A stretch of DNA of 45,711 nt from assembly GCA_943327315.2 (NCBI GenBank), contig CALPWQ020000006.1:1-45711 (forward strand). The letters are read 5' to 3'. The DNA is from Chitinophaga pinensis. Lineage in GTDB: Bacteria > Bacteroidota > Bacteroidia > Flavobacteriales_D > Crocinitomicaceae. A model generated the notes under the pieces. It saw only the letters and a list, made by a program, of their open reading frames with translations, did not search any database and was not told the DNA's origin. A program made the translations under genes and the position numbers. Of this stretch, positions 1 to 35,566 are shown piece by piece; positions within the stretch are counted from its first letter, which is position 1; every line of letters starts with the position of its first letter.

Positions 1-372
1 AATGAGGAATGGATCCATTCGAATCCAAAAAGCCCTTCACACACCATTGGCGCAATAATCCGCGGATTTAAAGGCGCTAGCACAAAAAAGATAAATCTTT
101 TTCTAAATTCTTCCTCCGCCCCAGCCGCCCCCTCTTCCGAATCGCTATTCGCCCCCTCTCCTAGAACGGGCGAATCGCTATTCGCCCCATCTCCTAGAAC
201 GGGCGAATCGCTATTCGCCCCATCTTACAATAAAATCTTTCAGAGAAATTATTACGAGCATATCATTAGAAATCAGAGAGATTATAATCGAATCGAAAAA
301 TACATTATCGATAACCCAGGGAATTGGATGAAGAAAAAGAAGAAAAAATTGAATTTAAAGAGTGAAGATTAG
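1..372 (+). CDS. REP-associated tyrosine transposase (Y1/IS200-like), C-terminal part, truncated by window start
   Basis: Frame 1 is open from base 1 to TAG at 370-372: NEEWIHSNPKSPSHTIGAIIRGFKGASTKKINLF...YNKIFQRNYYEHIIRNQRDYNRIEKYIIDNPGNW. The IIRGFK..TK and 'QRNYYEHIIRN..dynrIekYIidNPgnW' motifs are typical of the C-terminus of Bacteroidota Y1 transposases. Not in the ORF track because the start lies outside the window. Confidence 0.88.
   Translation, partial: NEEWIHSNPKSPSHTIGAIIRGFKGASTKKINLFLNSSSAPAAPSSESLFAPSPRTGESLFAPSPRTGESLFAPSYNKIFQRNYYEHIIRNQRDYNRIEKYIIDNPGNWMKKKKKKLNLKSED
139..220 (+). repeat. 33-bp in-frame tandem repeat (about 2.5 copies) containing REP-like palindrome GGGCGAATCGCTATTCGCCC
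   Basis: gaatcgctattcgcccc(c/a)tctcctagaacgggc repeats at 33-bp spacing. Perfect 8-bp-arm palindromes GGGCGAAT-CGCT-ATTCGCCC lie at 168-187 and 201-220, with a partial copy (CGAAT-CGCT-ATTCG core) at about 138-151. Confidence 0.92.
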
Positions 373-2787: not shown

Positions 2788-4065
2788 TTACGTCGTTTTT
2801 TCCTTGAGCACAAGCCGAGCAGTGTGTCGAGTGCGCTGTTCCACCAAGGTTTCTTTTCCTTCGCTCAACATCGCAAGGGTACGTGCATCGTAATGGCGAA
2901 TGGTGACGAGCTCAAGTCCTTCATTGTAGCGCACCTCATAGTTGTCGGTAAAATGTTCAATGACTTTCTCTGGATCTGTTTTACTGCGGTCGACGAGAAT
3001 GGAAAAATTCAAGGCTGAGTTTTGCATCAAATTGATTTTTACACCTAAACTCGCTAAACGCTTGAAAATGTCGCTCAAGTGCTCTTCAACAATGAAGGAA
3101 AAGTCGCGTCGATTGATGGAAAACAACACTTGATTTTTCATGACAATAAATGAAGGAATCAAATGGTCATTGGCGGTAGAAGCTTGAATGACGGTGCCTG
3201 TCGCTTCGGGTTGAAGGAATGATTTCACATAAAGTGGAATCCCTTTGTTTTGAAGTGGTTTGACAGTTTTTGGGTGGATAACAGAGGCGCCGTAGTACGA
3301 CAATTCAATCGCTTCACGGAATGAAATCTGATCGAGTTTGACCGTGTTTTCGAAGTGCTTCGGGTCGGCATTGAGCATTCCTGGAACATCTTTCCAAATG
3401 GTAACGCTCTCGGCATCGGTACAGTAAGCCAAAATTCCAGCGCTATAGTCCGAACCTTCGCGGCCAAGTGTTGTTGTAAATCCTTCACCTGTTGCGCCAA
3501 TAAATCCTTGAGTAACAAGAATGTCATTGTGCTCAAAAGCAGGAATCAAACGTTCGCGAATGAGCTCTTCTGTTTTTTTCCAATCGACATTTCCCTCGCG
3601 GTAGCGGTTATCAGTACGGATCAATAGGCGTGAATCGGCCCAGCGCGTGGCATGGCCTTGTTCATTCAGGAAGGCAGAAATAATTTGAGTGGATAGCAAT
3701 TCACCCAAGGACACGATTTGATCGTACTCAAAGTCGAAATTTTCAGGAAACGGCTGATTGAACCGGGCGCGTAGGCCTTCAAAAATTTCATCAAGGGCAT
3801 TGTAAGCAGCATAATGTCGTTCTTGAAACAAGTCCGCCATGATGTCGAGATGAAAGGCATAGAGGTCATCCACCAAAGCATCAAAGGTTTTTTTGTCGTG
3901 ACGCTGTTCTGCCGCAACGATTTCCTCCAATTTGTTGGTGGTTTTGCCCATTGCTGAAACGACTACGGTAATTTTTTCGCCATGAAACATGGAGAGAATG
4001 CCGGATACATTGCGCACAGCAGATGAATCTTTGACTGATGCGCCGCCAAATTTGAACACTTTCAT
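2788..4065 (-). CDS. lysC: Aspartate kinase (monofunctional)
   Basis: MKVFKFGGASVKDSSAV...VVSAMGKTTNKLEEIV; 'TTTLGREGSDYSAGILA' and C-terminal ACT-like region. Confidence 0.93.
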   Translation of the reverse strand: MKVFKFGGASVKDSSAVRNVSGILSMFHGEKITVVVSAMGKTTNKLEEIVAAEQRHDKKTFDALVDDLYAFHLDIMADLFQERHYAAYNALDEIFEGLRARFNQPFPENFDFEYDQIVSLGELLSTQIISAFLNEQGHATRWADSRLLIRTDNRYREGNVDWKKTEELIRERLIPAFEHNDILVTQGFIGATGEGFTTTLGREGSDYSAGILAYCTDAESVTIWKDVPGMLNADPKHFENTVKLDQISFREAIELSYYGASVIHPKTVKPLQNKGIPLYVKSFLQPEATGTVIQASTANDHLIPSFIVMKNQVLFSINRRDFSFIVEEHLSDIFKRLASLGVKINLMQNSALNFSILVDRSKTDPEKVIEHFTDNYEVRYNEGLELVTIRHYDARTLAMLSEGKETLVEQRTRHTARLVLKEKTT

Positions 4066-4141: not shown

Positions 4142-6526
4142 TTATTGGTTGATACCTAGACGTGTATTTGGTCGCGGTCCAAGATGAAACTCGAGGGTTC
4201 CCCCATTGACAAGATCCGCATGGGTGATGAAGAGGCGATGTAAAGGCTTGCCATTGAGATATACTGCCTGAATATATACGTTTTTCGGACCTTGATGACT
4301 TACTTTCACCGTGAAGGTCTTGCCGTTTTCTAAGAGTAATTCCGCCGATTTAATGCTAGGACTTGTCAAGGCATATTCTGTTGAGCCAGGCGCCACGGGG
4401 TAAAAGCCAAGTGAAGCAAACACCATCCAAGCGCTCATCTGTCCGCAGTCGTCGTTGCCTCCTAAACCGTCCGCGGCAGCTTTGTATTGAGATGGAAGAA
4501 TGGCGCGTGTCTGTGCCTGTGTTTTCCAAGGTTGCGAGGTCCAGTTGTAAAGAAAAGGAACATGGTGGGAAGGCTCATTCCCGTGCACGTAGTTGCCGAT
4601 GATTCCAGCACGCATGATGTCTTCAGTGTGCTCGATGTATTTATCAGCCAAAGGCATGGTAAAGAGGGAATCGAGGTGTTCGACGAAACGCTTGTCCCCA
4701 CCCATCAATGAAATCAAGGCTTTCGGGTTATGTGGAACATAGAGGCTATAATTCCACGCATTTCCTTCTATAAATCCTTGTCCGTGCGTATCCAAAGGAT
4801 CAAACGGGGACTTGAAGGTGCCATTCGAAAGGCGTGGTCGCATGAAGCCAATCGTTGAATCAAATACTTCGGTGTATGAATCTGCCCGCATCAAATAATA
4901 CTCTTTCAAATCAATTTCTGATCCATCCGACAATTCTGGATGCAGCGCCAACATCTGCGCAATAGTCCAATCGTCGTAAGCAAATTCTAAGGTTTTTGAC
5001 ACGGAATTTCCACTTTGGTCTTCAGCCACATAGAACGAATTCGACATGTACGACTTTAAGCCATCAAACCATTCATTGTTCGAGGTTTGAACACTCGCTT
5101 TAATCGCACGAATGTGATCGAAACCGCTTAGGCCTTTCACCATCGCATCGGCCAAAACGGAAACCGCGTGATACCCAATCATGCACCAATTGTCATTGGC
5201 GTAATGCGACCATACGGGCAACATCTTATGAACGCTTTGGTCGTAATGAGCGAGCATGGAATTGATCATATCGCTGTTGCGTTTCGGCTGCAGGATAGTG
5301 TATAAGGGATGTAAGGCGCGGTAGGTGTCCCACAAGGAGAAGGTGGTGTAATTGGTAAATCCTTCTGCCGTATGAATGTTCTGATCCAAGCCTTTGTAGG
5401 TGCTGTCATTGTCCATGTAAATGGTCGTTCCGAGGTAACAATGGTAAAGTGCCGTGTAAAAGTTCGTGTATTCTTCAGGAGAGCTTGCCTCAATTTTTAC
5501 TTTCGACAATTCATTTTCCCATGCGGCTTGACCTTGATTTTTAATGGAGTCAAAGTCCCACGATGGTACTTCAATACGCATATTTTCGATGGCGCCTTCT
5601 GTGCTTACAGGTGAGATAGCCACTTTGACCATCACAACTGGATTGTCTTTCAACTCAAAATGGATGTGGCCACGAATGCCTTCGCCAGCCATCTCAGGAA
5701 AATCTTTGGTTTGATTGAATTTTCCCCAAAAGCCATTGTATCCAGATGGACGATTGTTTTCAAATCCATACGTGCTGATGGACTGAGAAAAGGAAATCGC
5801 AAAATAGACAGTTCGTGTGCGCGCCCATCCATTCGTTTGACGATAGCCTGTAATCAAGGTGTCGTTTTCTACGCGCAGAAAGGTCCATGCATTTTTTCCG
5901 TCGTACGTGTAAATGCCATGGATCAAATCCAAGATGAGGTGCGCATTTTCAGCTTGATCAAACGTGTATCGATGCACCCCAACACGGGTTGTCGTTGTCA
6001 TTTCTGCTTTTACTTTTGGGTCCTCAAGATAAACGCTATAATAGTTTGGCGCTGCTTTTTCGGTGGAATGTGCGTAGCGAGAGCGGTATCCTTTGTCGGG
6101 TTGACTTTCCGTTCCTGGGTTCAATTGAACTTTACCTGCCCCTGGCATCAGCAGAATGTCCCCCAAGTCGGAATGACCTGTGCCGCTGAAATGGGTGTGT
6201 GTGAAGCCAACGATCGTAGGATCGTCGTACTGGTACCCCGCGCAGTATTTATACACCTCACCCGTATATTTTCCATTGACTGAAAAAGGTATCGTATCTG
6301 TGTCAGGACTCAATTGAACCGCTCCAAAAGGCATGCTCGCCCCAGGATAGGTATGTCCCGCATTCATAGTACCGATAAACGGATTTACATGATCGATAAG
6401 CCGCTGGCTAAATGAAAAATGAATGGTGAATATTGAAAAATGAAGAATTAAAAATGAAGAATGAAGGATACGCAAAAAAGAGGCATTCAAAATGAATGGA
6501 TGCTGATTAGGGGTATGATTACGCAT
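4142..6526 (-). CDS. GH92 family alpha-mannosidase, secreted
   Basis: 'RLIDHVNPFIGTMNAGHTYPGASMPFGAVQLSPDT' and 'GNDDCGQMSAWMVFASLGFYPVAPGSTEY' are GH92 hallmarks. Hydrophobic N-terminal signal region. Confidence 0.93.
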   Translation of the reverse strand: MRNHTPNQHPFILNASFLRILHSSFLILHFSIFTIHFSFSQRLIDHVNPFIGTMNAGHTYPGASMPFGAVQLSPDTDTIPFSVNGKYTGEVYKYCAGYQYDDPTIVGFTHTHFSGTGHSDLGDILLMPGAGKVQLNPGTESQPDKGYRSRYAHSTEKAAPNYYSVYLEDPKVKAEMTTTTRVGVHRYTFDQAENAHLILDLIHGIYTYDGKNAWTFLRVENDTLITGYRQTNGWARTRTVYFAISFSQSISTYGFENNRPSGYNGFWGKFNQTKDFPEMAGEGIRGHIHFELKDNPVVMVKVAISPVSTEGAIENMRIEVPSWDFDSIKNQGQAAWENELSKVKIEASSPEEYTNFYTALYHCYLGTTIYMDNDSTYKGLDQNIHTAEGFTNYTTFSLWDTYRALHPLYTILQPKRNSDMINSMLAHYDQSVHKMLPVWSHYANDNWCMIGYHAVSVLADAMVKGLSGFDHIRAIKASVQTSNNEWFDGLKSYMSNSFYVAEDQSGNSVSKTLEFAYDDWTIAQMLALHPELSDGSEIDLKEYYLMRADSYTEVFDSTIGFMRPRLSNGTFKSPFDPLDTHGQGFIEGNAWNYSLYVPHNPKALISLMGGDKRFVEHLDSLFTMPLADKYIEHTEDIMRAGIIGNYVHGNEPSHHVPFLYNWTSQPWKTQAQTRAILPSQYKAAADGLGGNDDCGQMSAWMVFASLGFYPVAPGSTEYALTSPSIKSAELLLENGKTFTVKVSHQGPKNVYIQAVYLNGKPLHRLFITHADLVNGGTLEFHLGPRPNTRLGINQ
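6411..6466. repeat. Degenerate 7-bp tandem repeat (8 units), plus-strand consensus AATGAAR
   Basis: AATGAAA AATGAAT GGTGAAT ATTGAAA AATGAAG AATTAAA AATGAAG AATGAAG with no insertions. Lies inside the 5' end of the GH92 CDS. Confidence 0.9.
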
Positions 6527-6530
6527 GAGC

Positions 6531-7529
6531 TTATGATAACTTATCCGACAGTATTCTCATTTCAATGGCAGGAGAAATGCGCTCGTATAGAATGTTGTAA
6601 ACGGCTTCTACAATGGGCATTTCTACTTGGAATTTTTTATTGATTTCCATGACACATTTTGTGGCGTAGTACCCTTCGGCAATCATGTCCATCTCCAATT
6701 GTGCAGTTTTCACAGAATACCCTTTTCCAATCATGTAGCCGAATGTACGATTGCGGGAGAATTTGGAATAGGCGGTAACAAGCAAATCACCAAGGTATGC
6801 GCTGGACTTCACATCGCGGTGAATGGGACTAACCTCGTCGATAAAGTTCTCAATCTCCTGAATGGCATTTGCAATCAAAACAGATTGGAAATTATCGCCG
6901 TAGCCCAAGCCTGAGCAGATTCCTGAAGCCAAGGCATAAACATTTTTCAGTATAGCAGATAGCTCAGTTCCGAAAAGATCGTCTGAAATGGTGGTTTTAA
7001 TGTAGCGGCAAGCGAGCAATTCAGCCACCTCTTCAGCCACTTCATCATCTTGTGCAGCAATGGTCAAATAAGAAAGACGCTCTAGCGCTACCTCTTCTGC
7101 ATGACAAGGACCGCAAATGATTCCTATGTTGTCGTAAGGTGTCCCAAAGGTCTTATGGATGAAGCGTGCAGGAATGGCATTGTATTCTGGAATGATTCCT
7201 TTAACGGCAGAAAAAACAATCTTGTCTTTCATTATTTCCGTTGGGAAATTCTCAAAAATGGAAACGAGAAAAGCGGATGGTGTAGCGATAATAACGATGT
7301 CAGCAGGCCGAATAATTTCTTCCAAATCTGTCGACACATTGATTTTATTGAGATCAAACTCTACAGACTGCAGGTAATTTGGATTGTGCTTGTATTTGAG
7401 AATGTGCGCTACTGCCGTTTCACTGCGCATCCACCAATTCACAGAATTGAGGTTGTTGCACAAAATTTTGACAAGTGCGGTTGCCCAGCTTCCACCTCCA
7501 ATAACTGCTATTTTCTTTTCTGTTTCCAC
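6531..7529 (-). CDS. gpsA: NAD(P)H-dependent glycerol-3-phosphate dehydrogenase
   Basis: KKIAVIGGGSWATALVKIL, 'VIATPSAFL', 'AVKGI', 'GPCHAEEVA', 'LKNVYALASGICSGLGYGDN'. The track start (TTG, 7547) lies in a -7 box; GTG at 7529 is preferred. Confidence 0.93.
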   Translation of the reverse strand: METEKKIAVIGGGSWATALVKILCNNLNSVNWWMRSETAVAHILKYKHNPNYLQSVEFDLNKINVSTDLEEIIRPADIVIIATPSAFLVSIFENFPTEIMKDKIVFSAVKGIIPEYNAIPARFIHKTFGTPYDNIGIICGPCHAEEVALERLSYLTIAAQDDEVAEEVAELLACRYIKTTISDDLFGTELSAILKNVYALASGICSGLGYGDNFQSVLIANAIQEIENFIDEVSPIHRDVKSSAYLGDLLVTAYSKFSRNRTFGYMIGKGYSVKTAQLEMDMIAEGYYATKCVMEINKKFQVEMPIVEAVYNILYERISPAIEMRILSDKLS

Positions 7530-7544
7530 ACGTAATGCTGCGAA

Positions 7545-7552
7545 CAAATGTA
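7545..7552 (-). promoter_or_regulatory. -7 box TACATTTG upstream of gpsA
   Basis: Exact TAnnTTTG match just upstream of the preferred GTG start. Confidence 0.5.
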
Positions 7553-35490: not shown

Positions 35491-35566
35491 GAGTTACGAG
35501 TTACGAGTATGAGTTATGAGTTACGAGTTATGAGATACGAGTTACGGATTACGAATTTGGTAATTT
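35491..35566. repeat. Degenerate 7-bp tandem repeat (about 11 units), plus-strand consensus GAGTTAY
   Basis: GAGTTAC GAGTTAC GAGTAT GAGTTAT GAGTTAC GAGTTAT GAGATAC GAGTTAC GGATTAC GAATTTG GTAATTT, starting immediately upstream of the recJ ATG. Confidence 0.9.

Follow-up and report, generated by a model that had tools for sequence, protein, structure and literature searches.

How does a tandem repeat with a unit of seven nucleotides come to lie inside a protein-coding gene, and what does it encode there? The question is raised by a heptamer array that falls within codons 1-41 of a complete GH92 open reading frame (4142-6526, minus strand) in the window, by which we mean the whole 45,711-nucleotide stretch of DNA that was analysed (Table 1). 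A first-pass annotation of the same letters had claimed that a 7-bp tandem repeat encodes the signal peptide of the enzyme and that the repeat was co-opted as, or replaced, a secretion signal. Our results bear out the first claim, with the array encoding the hydrophobic part of the leader, and both support and extend the second. Very probably, an intergenic-type TTCATTY array of this clade became part of the 5' end of GH92, where it encodes a Sec/signal-peptidase-I signal peptide.

Table 1. Positions in the window of the GH92 gene, its heptamer array and the neighbouring genes
Feature	Position	Strand	Basis or remark
Signal-peptide coding part, 40 codons, ATG to Ser40	6407..6526	-	predicted cleavage SFS/Q41
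Heptamer array, 8 units AATGAAR (TTCATTY on the minus, coding strand)	6411..6466	+	Tandem Repeats Finder and period test
Mature GH92 alpha-mannosidase-family enzyme, Q41 to stop	4142..6406	-	Pfam, TIGR01180
gpsA, NAD-dependent glycerol-3-phosphate dehydrogenase	6531..7547	-	stop 4 nt before the GH92 ATG
Presumed lysC-like aspartate kinase	2788..4065	-	immediately follows gpsA in most congeners lacking GH92

A heptamer array in the GH92 leader

The letters of the eight heptamers agree exactly with those first described, and Tandem Repeats Finder returned a period of 7 with 8.0 copies and 75% matches. Identity of the leader with itself at a lag of 7 nt was 0.755, a value reached in 0 of 2000 dinucleotide shuffles and in 0 of 2000 synonymous recodings of the identical peptide. 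The periodic signal thus stands above a shuffled background, and neither base composition nor the encoded peptide accounts for period 7.

The protein itself is a clear family member. Pfam PF17678 (GH92N; residues 46-305, 251 bits) and PF07971 (GH92 catalytic domain; residues 312-783, 553 bits) both score above their curated cut-offs, and TIGR01180 matches with 650 bits against a cut-off of 250. The whole mature enzyme, residues 40-792, aligns with known GH92 alpha-mannosidase structures (PDB 6f91, 6f8z, 7zgm, 2wvx); the leader alone is unusual. The N-terminus reads MRNHTPNQHPFILNASFLRILHSSFLILHFSIFTIHFSFS/QRLIDHVNPFIGT, where the slash, here and below, marks the predicted cleavage site, and its h-region, ILHSSFLILHFSIFTIHFSF, is encoded by the array.

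Start codon and predicted signal peptide

Between the array and Met54, which is inside the conserved VNPFIGTM motif, there is no ATG, GTG or TTG. Translation of GH92 should therefore start upstream of the array, a start downstream of it being ruled out on sequence grounds. The array might instead be non-coding, as 5' untranslated DNA or as a regulatory heptamer element, and be followed by the true start. Most arrays of the genome are indeed intergenic, a separate ATG follows those by hemB and an acyl-CoA transferase/hydrolase-like gene, and TAACTGA heptamers lying between genes near start codons have been suggested as sites for regulators (PMC4679880). We nevertheless consider an untranslated array very unlikely given the missing start codon, the 120 nt free of frame-breaking indels in all five species, as against changes by multiples of 7 nt in intergenic arrays, and the recurrence of repeat-built leaders on unrelated exported proteins.

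Less certain is the exact start, for which the ATG at 6526 and the TTG codons 13 and 18 are all candidates, because codons 1-18 show dN > dS (pS 0.11, versus 0.47 in the mature gene) and include an unusually conserved DNA block. This block, TTCATTTTGAATGCCTCTTTTTTGCG (window 6470-6500, codons ~10-19), is near-invariant in the five species, third positions included, whereas the codons preceding it are divergent. The block may overlap a DNA or RNA signal. Scans for sigma-70-type promoters and terminators gave background levels.

The maximum 12-residue Kyte-Doolittle value of the leader is 1.8-2.1 across the five species, compared with 1.8-2.65 in the ordinary leaders of relatives. The n-region is long and poorly conserved, with Arg2 present in three of the five; Arg19, just ahead of the array-encoded segment, is present in all. 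S-F-S/Q, or the same with S-F-G, is likewise found in 5/5 species, and since this places small residues at -3/-1 and Gln at +1, cleavage is predicted at SFS/Q41. The leader would accordingly be routed to Sec and cut between Ser40 and Gln41. Glutamine at +1 is the rule for signal peptidase I substrates in Bacteroidetes, accounting for a mean of 71% of predicted substrates per species (PMC5837995).

Coding properties of the repeat

Read in any of the three frames, (TTCATTC)n gives FILHSSF and (TTCATTT)n gives FIFHFSF, merely rotated, with no stop and with mean Kyte-Doolittle values of 1.3 and 1.67, respectively. The opposite strand meets a stop every 21 nt. TTAATTY units produce a stop in one frame when repeated, and single units are tolerated. 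The TTCATT strand is stop-free and encodes a 7-residue hydrophobic cycle, so that an array can serve as an h-region whatever its phase. Both this GH92 and the GH92 of another genome (G055, below) use the phase in which the array ends ...S-F-x/Q, with Ser at -3.

In the history that we propose, the GH92 gene took up at its 5' end a TTCATTY array of the kind dispersed between genes in the clade, and the hydrophobic cycle of this array (FILHSSF or FIFHFSF) would supply the Sec h-region. Its phase in GH92 ends S-F-S/Q and so provides small -3/-1 residues and, at +1, the glutamine that is typical of Bacteroidota. Once captured, the repeat would decay by point substitution, while selection would retain the frame and keep charges and stops out of the h-region.

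History of the leader among congeners

GH92 orthologues were found in four congeners and are 92-93% identical. In all five species the ATG stands 4 nt beyond gpsA, and the reading frame, the hydrophobic stretch and S-F-(S or G)/Q are retained; the sole indel in their leader alignment is a 6-nt deletion in G004. The array-derived leader is kept in 4/4 close orthologues, none of which has a non-repetitive signal peptide in its place. The repeat is sharpest in the genome of the window (G000) and decayed in G015 and G004. Genome-wide array matches number 64, 117, 66, 9 and 15 in exactly the five GH92-bearing species, the lowest counts (9 and 15) being those of G015 and G004; the remaining 21 congeners have 0-2 each. 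The five species presumably represent a clade of freshwater bacteria.

Only in this clade is GH92 placed between gpsA and lysC. The gene downstream is one that we take, from its sequence and established family knowledge, to encode a lysC-like aspartate kinase, and in most examined congeners without GH92 it follows gpsA after a short spacer. Since the gpsA-lysC order occurs elsewhere without GH92, this order would be ancestral and GH92 would most simply have entered the site in the ancestor of the five. With this placement of GH92 limited to the clade, two origins of the array can be envisaged: the gene may have met it at the insertion site, or the array may later have grown into the old leader. 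Orthologues from other genera (55-60% identity) carry ordinary leaders (MRFSLLTVGILLFAGSVSA/Q; MRIISYCLALICAFVLNLSHA/Q) or lipoprotein leaders, and a more diverged GH92 homologue in the congener G006 has an ordinary leader ending SIVSA/Q. As outside orthologues bear ordinary or lipoprotein signal peptides, the leader was replaced in the five-species clade, and the ordinary leaders of other genera fit the replacement envisaged at first pass.

Selection acts on both parts of the gene, moderately on the array-coded part (dN/dS ~0.40) and strongly, as purifying selection, on the mature enzyme (~0.05). The probability that neutral decay would leave all five species without stops or charges was ~0.024-0.026 in a test of only moderate strength. 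Had the array destroyed an older signal peptide, the enzyme would now be cytoplasmic or non-functional. That outcome is very unlikely, considering the strong purifying selection on the mature part and the retention in 5/5 species of h-region hydropathy (1.8-2.1) and the cleavage motif.

Dispersed arrays in the genome

The heptamer pattern gave 128 overlapping matches genome-wide versus 8 for a reversed control. Examination of loci around the matches resolved ~36 array clusters, of which ~34 are intergenic and 2 encode signal peptides. These are the only two in-gene arrays in the TTCATT sense and both are N-terminal, one in GH92 and the other in a LamG-domain protein. The latter is a 967-residue Laminin_G_3 protein (contig C166), unrelated to GH92, with the leader ...RSSFFIFNSSFLIFSSLFFIFHSSFVLS/QVPAYLP, ending FHSSFVLS/Q. 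Intergenic arrays had no preferred orientation with respect to the genes that flank them. Open frames also run through arrays 5' of hemB, acyl-CoA transferase/hydrolase-like and prenyltransferase-like genes; these candidates were rejected, a plausible start following the array in each.

Could these leaders be ordinary signal peptides, periodic through chance codon choice? Hydrophobic leaders are thymine-rich, and lag-7 values of the two most diverged GH92 orthologues fall inside the synonymous null. However, for both the GH92 and the LamG leader of G000, none of 2000 synonymous recodings attains the observed lag-7 identity, and repeat-built leaders coincide with array-rich genomes. Chance periodicity thus has next to no probability in our assessment.

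Orthologous intergenic arrays differ between species by 182, 21 and 14 nt, all multiples of 7. The largest difference, 26 heptamers (182 nt), separates G024:C86 (L128) from G000:C140 (L085) in two congeners and indicates that the arrays actively change length. Such behavior would accord with a phase-variable contingency switch, in which 7-nt slippage would frameshift the enzyme on and off. Since 7 is not a multiple of 3 and the array strand is open in every frame, a change of one unit would indeed frameshift the downstream sequence. At the GH92 array, by contrast, no 7-nt length change occurs among the five species and 5/5 are in frame. Decay of the repeat by substitution would also lower slippage, leaving a switch with very little likelihood compared with capture as a signal peptide.

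A CTTCGAC..GCTCAG motif lies just ahead of the heptamers in the LamG leader (L073 695-709, G000:C166) and occurs also in L211 and L265; it resembles a second dispersed repeat family. Two repeat families may thus have entered the LamG N-terminus. A further motif, CTTCGAAGCTCAAAGAGCGAAG, recurs beside heptamer arrays in array-rich species (intergenic regions of L068 and L081).

Repeat-built leaders elsewhere in Bacteroidota

A GH92 of a different subtype in G055, from another family of the order, carries MRARNKIYYLGRFFFILHFSFFILHSSFA/Q encoded by TTCATTCTCCATTTTTCATTTTTCATTTTACATTCTTCATTCGCTCAA. Its leader ends ...FFFILHFSFFILHSSFA/Q, in the form ...FILHSSFA/Q. The G055 genome is array-rich (31 matches); G045, of the same family as G055, has 0 array matches and an ordinary leader, and G064 also has an ordinary leader. 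The FILHSSFA/Q solution arose independently of that in the five-species GH92, and exaptation of this kind is apparently recurrent.

In a phylum-wide sample, a type IX-like secreted protein bears MIKKIYILSYLIFILNSSFLILNSPC/Q. Scanning the named genomes for arrays abutting a small residue and Gln yielded at least 83 sites in at least 80 loci. Among the matches listed, frames open for at least 100 aa numbered 19 in the Gln frame versus 10 and 7 in the other two. In at least seven cases besides the G024 orthologue, a long ORF has a start codon and a period-7 signal exceeding that of synonymous recodings (p ≤ 0.004, values biased by selection because the search pattern itself contains heptamers and a small residue plus Q). 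Repeat-built leaders were recorded on an RlpA-like protein (Prevotella), a DUF3256 protein (Prevotellaceae), a 704-residue protein (Flavobacteriales), a PafA alkaline phosphatase (Cytophagaceae), an NHL protein with a type IX sorting domain, an Lcl_C protein (Bacteroidales) and a PorP/SprF protein (Cyclobacteriaceae). Further matches to the search pattern, such as L295, L304 and L325, were rejected for lack of a period-7 signal (p 0.5-0.85), and the signal of L292 and L339 was borderline.

These data suggest, with reasonable rather than high probability, that across the phylum Bacteroidota TTCATTY arrays have repeatedly given rise to new signal peptides on unrelated exported proteins. Arrays may have replaced signal peptides repeatedly because the TTCATTY strand is open and hydrophobic in every phase and places Ser at -3 in one.

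Relation to known systems

Each element of this system has a known relative. Sec/SPI signal peptides obeying the Q-rule of Bacteroidetes (PMC5837995, PMC10653852) share the n-region, h-region, small -3/-1 residues and +1 Gln, but the h-region of GH92 is encoded by a 7-nt tandem array that is also dispersed as intergenic DNA. TAACTGA arrays of Beggiatoaceae, Cyanobacteria and some Bacteroidetes (PMC4679880) and heptameric repeats of Xanthomonas and Nostoc (PMC4692102) are likewise built of 7-nt units, dispersed, mostly intergenic and variable in copy number; here the unit is AATGAAR/TTCATTY and two arrays are translated as signal peptides. Rickettsia palindromic elements (Ogata et al. 2000, reviewed in PMC10969869) also place repetitive DNA in frame in unrelated protein genes. 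In comparison, the heptamers are neither palindromic nor mobile-element-like and serve one function, as an export signal, at the N-terminus only. Non-genic T-rich DNA pre-adapted for hydrophobic segments is known from T-rich intergenic DNA that gives rise to membrane segments (Vakirlis et al. 2020, PMC7005711), whereas the present case concerns a specific tandem repeat, in bacteria, replacing the signal peptide of an existing gene. No report of heptamer-encoded signal peptides was found in the literature searched, which takes in few subscription journals; within that literature, a tandem heptamer becoming a signal peptide more than once is a combination without precedent.

The locus offers a concrete route from non-coding repeat DNA to a working protein part, with the before and after states visible in related species. 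The starting material is a simple repeat, and the newly gained function, export, can readily be assayed. Intergenic heptamer arrays would acquire a consequence for the proteome, and array-rich genomes are predicted to bear repeat-built signal peptides.

Other tandem repeats in the window

A second heptamer array, of ~9 GAGTTAC copies (window 35491-35554), lies directly upstream of the recJ start codon, and AATTACG/GAGTTAC-type units are found near other arrays of the genome as well. A 33-bp tandem repeat occupies window positions 138-225, with 2.7 copies and 98% matches.
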